This document shows, piece by piece, positions 5,401-39,135 of a DNA stretch of 64,000 nucleotides (position 1 is the stretch's first letter; each line of letters begins with the position of its first letter). Location of the stretch: the NCBI GenBank assembly GCA_017620335.1, contig JAFZQO010000030.1:1-64000 (forward strand), written 5' to 3'. A model generated the notes under the pieces. That model was not told the origin of the DNA. It was given only the letters and a program-made list of their open reading frames with translations, and did no database searches. The position numbers were made by a program, and so were the translations under genes. Origin of the DNA: Bacteroidales bacterium (GTDB lineage Bacteria; Bacteroidota; Bacteroidia; Bacteroidales; UBA932).

Positions 5401-6078
5401 ATGAGAATAGACATCCTCACCGTAGTACCCGAACTCCTCGAGAGCCCCCTCGGCCATTCCATAGTGGGAAGGGCCGTGAAGAAAGGGCTGGTGGAGATAC
5501 ACGTCCACAACCTCAGGAAATACGGCATCGGCCCACGCAGGAACGTCGACGACTACAGCTACGGCGGGGACGCCGGCATGGTCATGATGGTCGAGCCGGT
5601 CTTCCGCATGATCGAGGAACTGAAGTCAGAAAGGGACTACGACGAGGTCATCTACATGTCCCCCGACGGGGACATCCTTAACCAGGGCATAGCGAACGAG
5701 CTCTCGCTAAAGGAGAACATCATCATCCTCTGCGGGCATTACAAGGGCGTAGACCACCGTATCCGGGAGCACCTTGTAACCAGGGAGATATCCGTGGGCG
5801 ACTATGTCGTCAGCGGCGGCGAGATCCCTGCGGCCCTGCTGGCCGACAGCATAATCCGCCTCATCCCCGGCGCGCTCACCGACGAGACCTCGGCGCTGAG
5901 CGATTCCTTCCAGGACGACCTCCTCTCCCCTCCCGTCTACACCCGCCCCGCGGAGTTCAACGGCTGGAAGGTCCCCGACGTCCTTCTCAGCGGCAATCCC
6001 AAGCTCATACGCGCGTGGCAGGACGAGCAGGCGCTCGCCCGCACCAAGGCCCTCCGCCCCGGACTTCTTAAGAAATAA
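5401..6078 (+). CDS. trmD: tRNA (guanine-N1)-methyltransferase TrmD
   Basis: A 225-residue SPOUT-fold methyltransferase that makes m1G37 in tRNAs using S-adenosylmethionine. Landmarks are [13 protein letters not shown] at the start, [37 protein letters not shown], and the knot region [15 protein letters not shown] with [15 protein letters not shown]. The length is normal. In most bacteria trmD sits with rpsP, rimM and rplS; here it stands alone, with its own promoter and a hairpin downstream. Confidence 0.97.
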
Positions 6079-6117
6079 CCATTATCATTTCCTGAGAAGA
6101 CACCCTCGTACGATAAA

Positions 6118-6248
6118 CGAATTAACCCCGCATCACTGCGGGGTTAATCGGTTAGTTAGTAGTGTATTTTACCTCTGAAAAGGTTAATTATTGTTGGTTA
6201 GATCTCTTTTGCAAGAGTAGAGTGTGTCCAATTGTAACGTTTTAAGTT
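6118..6248 (-). ncRNA. Candidate small RNA (about 125 nt) with own promoter and terminator
   Basis: On the minus strand a full Bacteroidetes promoter is followed by about 125 bases with no ATG before the terminator hairpin. The would-be transcript holds a small hairpin CTCTT-GCAA-AAGAG closed by a GNRA-type tetraloop, a weaker ACCT...AGGT hairpin, and a final GC-rich hairpin (ACCCCGCA / TGCGGGGT). There is no sign of SRP RNA or tmRNA landmarks and I do not recognise the family. The call rests on the architecture promoter, structured leaderless RNA, terminator. Confidence 0.45.
6121..6148. terminator. Hairpin terminator after trmD, shared with the opposing sRNA candidate
   Basis: ATTAACCCCGCA and TGCGGGGTTAAT pair perfectly (12 bp) around a 4-base loop, 43 bases after the trmD stop. 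There is no long T-run on either side, so efficiency is uncertain, but the symmetry suits use from both strands. Confidence 0.65.
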
Positions 6249-6253
6249 CAATG

Positions 6254-6284
6254 CAAAGGTAGTGAACTTTTGTTAATCTGCAAA
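6254..6284 (-). promoter_or_regulatory. Bacteroidetes-type promoter for the sRNA candidate
   Basis: On the minus strand TTTG (6281-6284) is followed by exactly 19 bases and then TACCTTTG (6254-6261). Both boxes and the spacing fit the -33/-7 consensus. No start codon follows within 100 bases, so the product is probably an untranslated RNA. Confidence 0.65.
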
Positions 6285-6430
6285 CTTTTTTAAGAAAAAA
6301 TAAAGAGTTCCGTTTATTTTTTAAGAATTTGCATATTTGAATATATAAGATGTTATTTTATACTCTCTGTCGCTTTGGACGTAGTCGCTTGTGTCTCAAT
6401 CACTCAGGAAGAATCGACGGGACGACTTCC

Positions 6431-6612
6431 CGGGCATGGGAATGGCGTTTTCATTCCCATTTGCAGGAAAAAAGCGGTTTTGGGAATGAAAATGGCATTT
6501 TCATTCCCCATTGGGCAGCAGGGTGGCTGTTCGGGCCTGGGAGAGGTGTTTTCGGGCCCGTTGGAGTGGAAAAACATCTTTCCGGGACTGAAATAAGCGT
6601 TTTCAGGCCCGG
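6431..6612. repeat. Tandem array of four palindromes, 50-51 bp period, 13-nt loops
   Basis: Four inverted repeats with arms of 8-9 bases flank 13-base loops at 6439-6451, 6489-6501, 6540-6552 and 6591-6603, giving centres at 6445, 6495, 6546 and 6597. Arms differ between units (GGGAATG/CATTCCC, CGGGCCTG/CGGGCCCG, CCGGGACTG/CAGGCCCGG) yet remain complementary with at most one mismatch, except the first unit, which matches 6 of 8. Loops share a GGYRTTTT or AGCGTTTT end. In the second unit the loop itself pairs, making a 27-base near-perfect palindrome. The array ends 17 bases past the stop of the glutaminyl cyclase gene. Similar arrays lie at 20575-20691 and 39005-39135. Confidence 0.8.
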
Positions 6613-6628
6613 ATGAGAGGGGAAAGCG

Positions 6629-7396
6629 CTACTTTTTCTCGACGAGTTCGATCTCGTAGAGACGCTTCCAGTATTTGCCGGTGAGGTAGATCTTTCCGGT
6701 ATCGGGATCGAGGGCGATGCCGTTGAGGACGTCGGTGTTCTGGTCGCGCAGATGCTGGGGCAGCAGCCCGGTGCAGTCGACCTTGCCCTCCACGACGCCG
6801 GTGGAAGGATTGATGATGAGGATGAGGTCGGTGGTATAGACGTTGGCCCAGACCTTGCCGTCGATATACTCAAGCTCGTTAAGGTTGCGGACGGGACGGC
6901 CGTCAAGCTTGACGTCAACGGTCTTCAGGAGTTTGTAGTCCCCATCCATGAAGAACAGCCTGGAACTGCCGTCCGAGGCGATTAGCTGCTTCCCGTCGGT
7001 GGTGAGCCCCCACCCTTCGCGTGGGTAATTGAACGTGGACTTGTACTCCAGAGTATTGGCGTCGTAGATGAACGCCACCCTGCTCTCCCAGGTCAGGATG
7101 TAAAGGTTGTCCCCGAGAACCACGGAACCCTCGACGAAGTACTTGCGGTTGAACTTGAGCTTCTCCAGGGCCTCGCCGGTGGACAGCTCGACCTTGCGGA
7201 AGGTCGAGGAGCCGTACTGGCCCGTGCTCTCGTACATGTCCCCCTTGTAGAAGAAAAGGCCCTGGGTATAGGAGCCCGTGTCGTGAGGGTACTCCTTCAC
7301 GACCTTCACCTTGTACTCCTTGACCTTGGCCTCGCAGCTGCAGCACAGCAACGCGGCGGCAAGGATGGACAACACTAAATATAATCTTCTCATCAT
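6629..7396 (-). CDS. Glutaminyl-peptide cyclotransferase, plant/bacterial beta-propeller type, lipoprotein
   Basis: A 255-residue exported protein. The signal peptide ends in a lipobox-like LLCCSC, so it is probably lipid-anchored. The mature part matches the Glu_cyclase_2 family: YPHDTGSYTQGLFFYKG near the start, ESTGQYGSSTFRKVEL, LTWESRVAFIYD, GWGLTTDGKQLIASDGSSRL, LNELEYIDGKVWANVYTTD and LNGIALDPDTGKIYLTGKYW. The family cyclises N-terminal glutamine to pyroglutamate on exported proteins. This is plausible in Bacteroidetes because signal peptidase I often exposes Gln, though that link is inference. A TTG three bases upstream could also start; I chose the ATG at 7396. Confidence 0.88.
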   Translation of the reverse strand: MMRRLYLVLSILAAALLCCSCEAKVKEYKVKVVKEYPHDTGSYTQGLFFYKGDMYESTGQYGSSTFRKVELSTGEALEKLKFNRKYFVEGSVVLGDNLYILTWESRVAFIYDANTLEYKSTFNYPREGWGLTTDGKQLIASDGSSRLFFMDGDYKLLKTVDVKLDGRPVRNLNELEYIDGKVWANVYTTDLILIINPSTGVVEGKVDCTGLLPQHLRDQNTDVLNGIALDPDTGKIYLTGKYWKRLYEIELVEKK

Positions 7397-7417
7397 CAAG
7401 CTGTTGAGTGTACTTTC

Positions 7418-7760
7418 AAAAAAAGGTGGAGCCGTAAGCCGGTTTCTGTTTTTGAATCTGCCATTTATCTTCGCAACCTACCCCCCGGCATCGGGCGGGC
7501 CGCCCTCGTCTGCCGGTATATTTGGTCTTGCAGGCCCCGGTGCCGTACCCGCCGGACATCGCTGCCCGGCGTCGTGAGCCCTTGCCTCGCGTTTTCACCC
7601 TTGCCGTCTTCCGTCAGAGGCGGAGCCTCTCAGCGAAGGCGGCGGTCATTCTCTGTTACGGCCGGCGTAAGATTGCTCCCACCTGCGCTTTCCGCAGCGG
7701 GGTGCCCTTCCCTGTCCGGACTTTCCTCGGCCGAAGCCGCGGCAGATCGCTCCACCTTTC
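7418..7760 (-). ncRNA. rnpB: RNase P RNA, bacterial type A
   Basis: Read on the minus strand, the region has the P1 helix formed by AGGTGGAGC near the 5' end (7749-7757) and GCTCCACCT at the 3' end (7424-7432). The universally conserved GAGGAAAGTCCGGAC is at 7714-7728 and ACAGAAACCGGCTTAC at 7434-7449, close to the 3' end. The length of about 335 nt fits bacterial M1 RNA, the catalytic part of the tRNA 5'-processing enzyme. A run of T follows P1 and can serve as terminator. TATCTTTG just upstream on the minus strand is a likely -7 element. Confidence 0.96.
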
Positions 7761-20547: not shown

Positions 20548-20574
20548 CTTCCCTTTCATCTCCGCCCCGCCCTT

Positions 20575-20691
20575 CCGTACCGGTTCAAGGTTCATTCCGG
20601 TACGGAAATGCCTTTTTTATCGAAACCGTACCGGTTTAGGCCCTGTTCCGGTACGGAAATCTTTTTTCACCGGCCTGGAGACGCATTCCGG
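20575..20691. repeat. Tandem palindromes with exact 51-bp period, 13-nt loops
   Basis: Two inverted repeats have identical 9-base arms, CCGTACCGG and CCGGTACGG, at 20575-20583/20597-20605 and 20626-20634/20648-20656. Both loops are exactly 13 bases and the units are 51 bases apart. Each right arm is followed by AAAT and a run of six T, so each could work as a terminator for the PNP gene, which ends 27 bases before. A weak third unit (CCGG-14-CCGG) lies at 20670-20691. The geometry is the same as in the arrays at 6431-6612 and 39005-39135, but the arms are different. Confidence 0.82.
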
Positions 20692-39004: not shown

Positions 39005-39135
39005 CGGGCCTGTAAACACCAACTCTGGGCCCGTTTGCAGGCATAATCGTCCTTTGGGGCCCAGAATCGCTTTTTGGGGGCCCGTTCGTCCGGGAAACGA
39101 CCCGTTTTCCCGGGAAAAGGGTTCCCTGACCGGAA
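39005..39135. repeat. Palindrome array with 51-bp period, third locus
   Basis: Half-sites built on GGGCC(C) start at 39006, 39027, 39057 and 39078, spaced 21, 30 and 21 bases. This yields two palindromes with 13-base loops (39013-39025 and 39064-39076), centres at 39019 and 39070, with arms matching at 6 of 8 positions. A weaker third unit would centre at 39121. The loops read on the minus strand (GAGTTGGTGTTTA, CAAAAAGCGATTC) resemble those of the array at 6431-6612. A separate CCGGGA/TCCCGG palindrome lies at 39090-39113. The array is 40 bases past the DUF4301 stop. Confidence 0.65.

Follow-up and report, generated by a model that had tools for sequence, protein, structure and literature searches.

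A composite array of four evenly spaced palindromes in a Bacteroidales genome and its probable link to RAYT-like proteins

Introduction

Repetitive extragenic palindromes (REPs) and the REP-associated tyrosine transposases (RAYTs) are described as coevolving in the available parts of PMC2817692 and PMC8266576, and GTAG and CGTC families are treated in the accessible part of PMC3733652. For Bacteroidetes, the available text of PMC6006769 describes TnpA_Y1 subclass 2.6 (RAYT group 5), with atypical flanking structures that lack GT[AG]G, a median length of 179, the Y motif YIH[QN]NP and an HUH–Tyr distance near 82. Here, we analyse an array of four palindromes (locus 1; positions 6432..6610) in the window, a stretch of 64 000 nucleotides (contig JAFZQO010000030.1, positions 1 to 64 000, assembly GCA_017620335.1) from a Bacteroidales bacterium of the UBA932 lineage. 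Judged by sequence comparison, the array is most likely a REP-like non-autonomous element that joins two palindrome pairs, each belonging to one of two sister RAYT-like HUH proteins that are encoded elsewhere in the genome. Its hairpin loops are 13 nt long, compared with 2–5 nt in canonical REPs.

The four-unit array and its copies

Locus 1 contains four palindromes of 27 bp, all read on the + strand. Units 1 (6432..6458; arms GGGCATG/CATTCCC) and 2 (6482..6508; perfect arms) belong to a GGGAATG family, and units 3 (6533..6559; arms GGGCCTG/CGGGCCC) and 4 (6584..6610; arms GGGACTG/CAGGCCC) belong to a GGGCC family. A repeat search places the starts at 6432, 6482, 6533 and 6584, with successive spacings of 50, 51 and 51 bp, and the arms of units 1–4 pair at 6, 7, 6 and 6 of 7 positions. 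The 13-nt loops centred at 6445, 6495, 6546 and 6597 in a preliminary description of this DNA were found exactly on rescanning, and the shared loop ends that it reported read GCGTTTT, GCATTTT, GTGTTTT and GCGTTTT. By an arithmetic estimate, chance would yield a run of four palindromes of this kind with these spacings about 1e-4 times per 2.76 Mb. The description had also interpreted the arms as co-varying, which holds in part: pairing-preserving variants do occur within the GGGAATG family (GGGAATG/CATTCCC, GGGAATAG/CTATTCCC and GGGAACAG/CTGTTCCC), but the main shift in the arms falls between units 2 and 3 and reflects the meeting there of two element families, each also present separately, rather than compensation within one.

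Both families recur in G000, the 2.76-Mb genome of 54 contigs that contains the window. A GGGCC-type search returned 29 forward and 20 reverse matches (control, 0 and 1), many of them 51 bp apart, and the GGGAATG type was found with zero or one mismatch at 13 sites; at every one of these another palindrome lies at a distance of exactly 50 bp, and one site is a triplet. The spacers of GGGAATG pairs (L198–L204 and others) often carry a central A or T run; among 19 spacers from dimers at the named loci, nine contain such a run of at least four bases. The complete order GGGAATG, GGGAATG, GGGCC, GGGCC is found in the same register at three sites, namely locus 1 and related composites at C45:71919 and C50:538, with unrelated flanks. 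Locus 1 and C45 share 61% identity in the spacers (0/5000 shuffles), 23% in the flanks and 89% in the arms, the arm identity being partly selected for, as C45 and C50 were found via their arms. C50 is more diverged, with spacers 44% identical to those of C45 (2/5000 shuffles) and 38% identical to those of locus 1 (73/5000, a weak signal). The simplest reading of these identities is that the four-unit block would have been dispersed, reaching three or more sites. When 151 genomes of the genus were searched at the DNA level, matches came only from the window's own genome and, in one case, from G141. No array was present at a threshold of 13 beside any of 24 related cyclotransferase genes (one of them, L289, has a best lag of 51 with a score of 9), or on reading by eye in 20 same-genus trmD downstream regions, where gene order differs and the boundary is not readable.

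The comparison with shuffled sequence, which the preliminary description had named as the result that could refute it, came out in its favour: when 457 150 bases of the genome were scanned for structure alone, 18 strong palindrome pairs 49–53 bp apart were found, belonging to several unrelated arm families, whereas 20 block shuffles gave a mean of 1.5 pairs; a few of the 18 look chance-like. The strict scan lists the array at 20590/20641 and misses locus 1 owing to an arm mismatch in three of its four units; a looser scan recovers it. If a chance palindrome had simply been duplicated in tandem, equal spacing within one array would result, but this explanation is hardly credible when the same spacing is found across unrelated arm families and species, when neighbouring units keep their arms and differ in their spacers, and when the 50-bp pair recurs at all 13 GGGAATG sites.

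Cognate RAYT-like proteins

A gene at C43:75 kb is flanked on both sides by GGGAATG palindromes and another at C5:119 kb by GGGCC palindromes. Cognate palindromes are clear by eye on both sides of seven of the ten own-genome genes that were read, and up to 15 such paralogues are present per genome. Ad hoc gene calls around the dispersed sites were unreliable (trmD was missed), and no orientation count was drawn from them.

The cognate proteins contain the HUH motif and the catalytic tyrosine of the Y1 core. N-H-x-H and one tyrosine are invariant in alignments A1 and A3 (eight rows each), as are both histidines and the tyrosine in alignment A4 (38 rows); in L073, the tyrosine is Y145 within YNNRNG, 58 residues past H87. 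The fold is that of the E. coli RAYT, with a match clearly better than that to IS200/IS605, the second best. The proteins are about 310 residues long, with an extra C-terminal part that is helical in the structure model. A helix-turn-helix was considered for the C-terminus and rejected, as no Pfam match supports it. Family libraries recognize the group unevenly: six of the eight A1 members match NF047646 (best E value 6.7e-10) and six of the eight match PF01797 (best 6.1e-6), the cognate protein L073 matches neither library and L001 has no match in Pfam, and in the clade A set of 38 there are no matches to NF047646 and 16 to PF01797 (best E value 5e-4). Among 68 stretches matched in a search of viral contigs there was one relative; a viral-collection contig carries L287, a clade A relative with 46% identity.

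Spacing and arm–protein coupling in relatives

Relatives were taken as the best 80 of 103 from one scan, with titles naming Bacteroidales, Bacteroidia, Candidatus Cryptobacteroides, Cacconaster or Egerieousia and with sources, where given, that are mostly rumen or hindgut. A set of 77 loci from the genus partly overlaps these 80 named loci, such that the combined 157 include some genes twice. The best repeat lag falls at 49–53 in 85 of 157 flanks of the named loci (three others were too short) and at 59 of the 80 loci, in none of 136 stretches 1.5–2 kb away and in no shuffled flank; the best lag was 51 in one of 40 trmD flanks used as controls. Palindrome pairs at 50–53 bp number 167 in 108 kb beside the genes versus three in 123 kb farther off. 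In the 77-locus set, copies of the commonest 8-mer in the flanks are most often 51 (48) or 52 (43) bp apart on the same strand, followed by the doubles of these values, 102 and 104. A sample of the window's own genome holds 28 pairs at 50–53 bp (8.0 expected) and G013, in which no gene was found, holds three (5.8 expected).

In a tree of the proteins, the spacing is 50–52 bp in clade A (15 rows) and 51–52 bp in clade B (30 rows). Clades C (13 rows) and D (eight rows) give weaker signs of 72–75 bp, from few loci and with no significant phase; L084, L105, L129, L130, L139, L140 and L147 from these clades seemingly have a spacing of about 70–75 bp, some two helix turns above that of clades A and B.

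The arms vary with the protein. An arm 7-mer was assigned at 99 of the 157 loci (78 distinct sequences), of which 93 remain after the removal of near-identical proteins. Protein pairs with at least 70% identity (n = 38) share a mean of 5.82 of 7 arm bases, with 68% sharing six or more; these values fall to 4.18 and 10% for pairs with 55–70% identity (n = 94) and to 3.4–3.6 and about 1–3% below 55%. L207 (78% identity to the C5 protein) has the GGGCCC arms seen at C5; the arms of L208, which comes from the same isolate, are CGGGAGC. This isolate appears from match positions to be G141.

DNA geometry and RNA folding

In 127 units from 29 loci the arms are 90–99% complementary at half-distances 8–12, a value that is partly built in because these units were chosen for pairing; at offsets 12–14, which were held out of the choice, pairing is 0.74, 0.60 and 0.51 (one unit each, 35 loci). 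In the same 127 units, the AT-rich loop tracts at 3–6 are no more complementary than expected. In the own-genome GGG family, 46 of 51 units have A and T opposite each other at offset 4, where the stem could therefore extend.

The AT content repeats every 10.2 bp. The power of the fifth harmonic in single units is 3.87 for 97 clade A units and 3.74 for 30 clade B units (sixth harmonic 2.16). The 136 control units have a power of 1.00, and shuffles do not exceed 1.41 and 1.71; three clade D and two clade C units gave no significant harmonic. Whole arrays agree, and none of 2000 shuffles reaches the AT phase of locus 1. AT-rich positions are in phase at 10.2–10.4 bp in both clades A and B; at the dyad, clade B has AT whereas clade A has GC, and the clade B phase is noisier (29 dyads, 11 loci). 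The proposal that the period is close to five helical turns is supported by the 10.2-bp recurrence in clade A arrays and in locus 1. This geometry points to double-stranded DNA, with which processing of single strands is compatible.

The array could instead act as RNA, as stacked hairpins at the 3′ ends of the trmD or cyclotransferase transcripts for termination or mRNA protection. It lies between convergent genes, trmD (5401..6078, + strand, PF01746) running towards it from the left and a glutamine cyclotransferase gene (6629..7399, − strand, PF05096) with its stop 18 bp beyond unit 4, and both strands of the region fold more favourably than shuffled sequence (z of −5.74 and −4.19). Moreover, in array-oriented own-genome units (n = 51), T.G outnumbers C.A by 12 to 3 at offset 8 and G.T outnumbers A.C by 29 to 9 at offsets 5–7, so that the + strand could form G.U pairs. 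However, G.T and A.C mismatches are balanced in the gene-oriented 80-locus set (9 to 12 upstream and 14 to 15 downstream), the loop AT tracts pair no more than by chance, the array is missing beside the 24 related cyclotransferase genes and there is no obvious RNA reason for a 10.2-bp AT phase. A terminator reading of the array was rejected, as a scan of 5900–7000 finds only a separate hairpin at 6120–6149 and no hairpin followed by a T run within the array, which also belongs to no Rfam family (matches lie only far below each family's gathering score). Given the mismatch balance and the lack of a terminator-like site, an RNA fold is not favoured, and we regard this alternative as improbable. 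The earlier suggestion of selection for a folded or dyad form is supported for the dyad, the arms being complementary while varying in sequence at many loci, and is not favoured for an RNA fold.

Proposed mechanism

We propose that each RAYT-like protein would recognize two half-sites in its cognate dyad, separated by about two helix turns, and that the dyads of a pair would lie five turns apart on one face of the DNA. The protein would nick and transfer single strands through its HUH/Tyr site, probably on DNA exposed at replication, and palindrome pairs would thereby be copied into intergenic DNA. Locus 1 may have arisen when a GGGAATG pair and a GGGCC pair came to lie side by side in register, the four-unit block then spreading, with arms diverging quickly together with the protein while the geometry is conserved. 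It is quite possible, although we advance it tentatively, that the proteins read the palindromes as double-stranded, helically phased dyad pairs rather than as single-stranded hairpins, and that arm recognition is rapidly re-specified within a fixed geometry in many couples per genome.

An alternative is that the arrays are bound as double strands by an architectural or regulatory protein (acting in nucleoid structure, supercoiling or partition), perhaps with the RAYT-like proteins as its sequence-specific binders devoid of present mobility. Such a role would share several of these features: the fixed five-turn spacing with half-sites about two turns apart, the AT phase of 10.2–10.4 bp in clades A and B with its unpaired AT-rich loop, the coupling of arm to protein and the helical C-terminal extension in the model. 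We consider it rather doubtful. Copies stand at unrelated sites with related spacers and are missing at corresponding places in relatives, and therefore must have been dispersed at some time; Pfam also detects no helix-turn-helix in the C-terminus.

Several results, in addition to the selection of C45 and C50 by their arms, weigh against a dispersed REP-like element. Copy number is low, with 13 GGGAATG sites versus hundreds for REPs; 15 further two-mismatch matches were excluded as chance-like, a control pattern giving five. The GT[AG]G foot of canonical REPs was not seen by eye on either strand at 14 GGGAATG rows. The period is lacking at 21 of the 80 named loci, a strict palindrome-pair test succeeds at only 34 of the 77 loci (on both sides at 13) and misses the C5 gene, and 58 of the 157 loci gave no arm. 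Dissemination is not shown to be general, because a 400-kb sample of G023 (nine genes) away from these genes holds two pairs against 3.2 expected. Nor is the arm–protein coupling strict, because a GGGAATG-type pair is present in G141, whose two nearest proteins have arrays with different arms.

Other elements

Two CCGTACCGG-N13-CCGGTACGG palindromes 51 bp apart (20573..20660, + strand) follow a phosphorylase-family gene and are probably the same kind of element as locus 1. No cognate transposase gene was found for them, and beyond this pair the family has one three-mismatch copy, no more than in the control. A second GGGCC-type array (centres 39019 and 39069) lies at 39006..39115 (+ strand) together with a further palindrome at 39090–39113; within 39006–39134, the palindrome that comes after the GGGCC-type pair is of a differing kind, CCGGGAAA/TTTCCCGG. 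Elsewhere in the genome, L067:12900–15150 (contig C51) is a dense mix of ATCCTTC/GAAGGAT, CCGGTCCA and GTGTGC palindromes, in which a near-identical block recurs 235 bp apart.

Beside trmD, at about 6112–6254 on the − strand, a conserved non-coding element, ACUACUAACUAACC, recurs without change at 16 of 20 other trmD loci from the genus and is followed by a covarying GC-rich hairpin with double changes at ten of 12 predicted pairs (17 sequences). It matches no Rfam family and is a candidate for an unrecognized small RNA or leader. The Rfam search also identified a class A bacterial RNase P RNA (7419–7758, − strand); a tRNA scan of the window found none.

Comparison with known systems

As far as the available parts of PMC2817692 and PMC8266576 describe them, the REP and bacterial interspersed mosaic element systems of Enterobacteria, Pseudomonas and Stenotrophomonas resemble the present one in having palindromes between genes, a gene flanked on both sides by its own palindromes, the RAYT fold, protein–palindrome coevolution and regularly spaced clusters. 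They differ from it in that here the 13-nt loop has an AT–GC–AT pattern, the 50–53 bp period holds across unrelated arm families, and there are up to 15 paralogues per genome with few copies per family and proteins of about 310 residues with an additional C-terminal part. Subclass 2.6, as presented in the accessible text of PMC6006769, is likewise from Bacteroidetes and has atypical structures without GT[AG]G and copies elsewhere in the genome. The present proteins are set apart from it by their length, by a mostly Y-N-NRNG motif in clade A and by a shorter HUH–Tyr distance; that text does not mention fixed spacing or helical phase.

Our search of the open-licence literature found no description of a fixed, helically phased 50–53 bp arrangement or of this Bacteroidales lineage. 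The proteins would represent a large RAYT lineage of gut and rumen Bacteroidales that is poorly caught by NF047646 and Pfam and has several protein–palindrome couples per genome, which would amount to a natural experiment in changing transposase-type specificity. The fixed five-turn geometry makes the recognition of REP pairs directly testable, and the proposal would account for intergenic palindromes that are easily mistaken for RNA structures or terminators.

IS200/IS605 elements share the HUH/Tyr fold and palindromic ends. A REPIN is a pair of palindromes. With REPINs (PMC3116915), locus 1 and its relatives have in common a spreading unit that looks like a palindrome pair, while differing from them in the constant centre distance of 50–52 bp and in the composites of two families.
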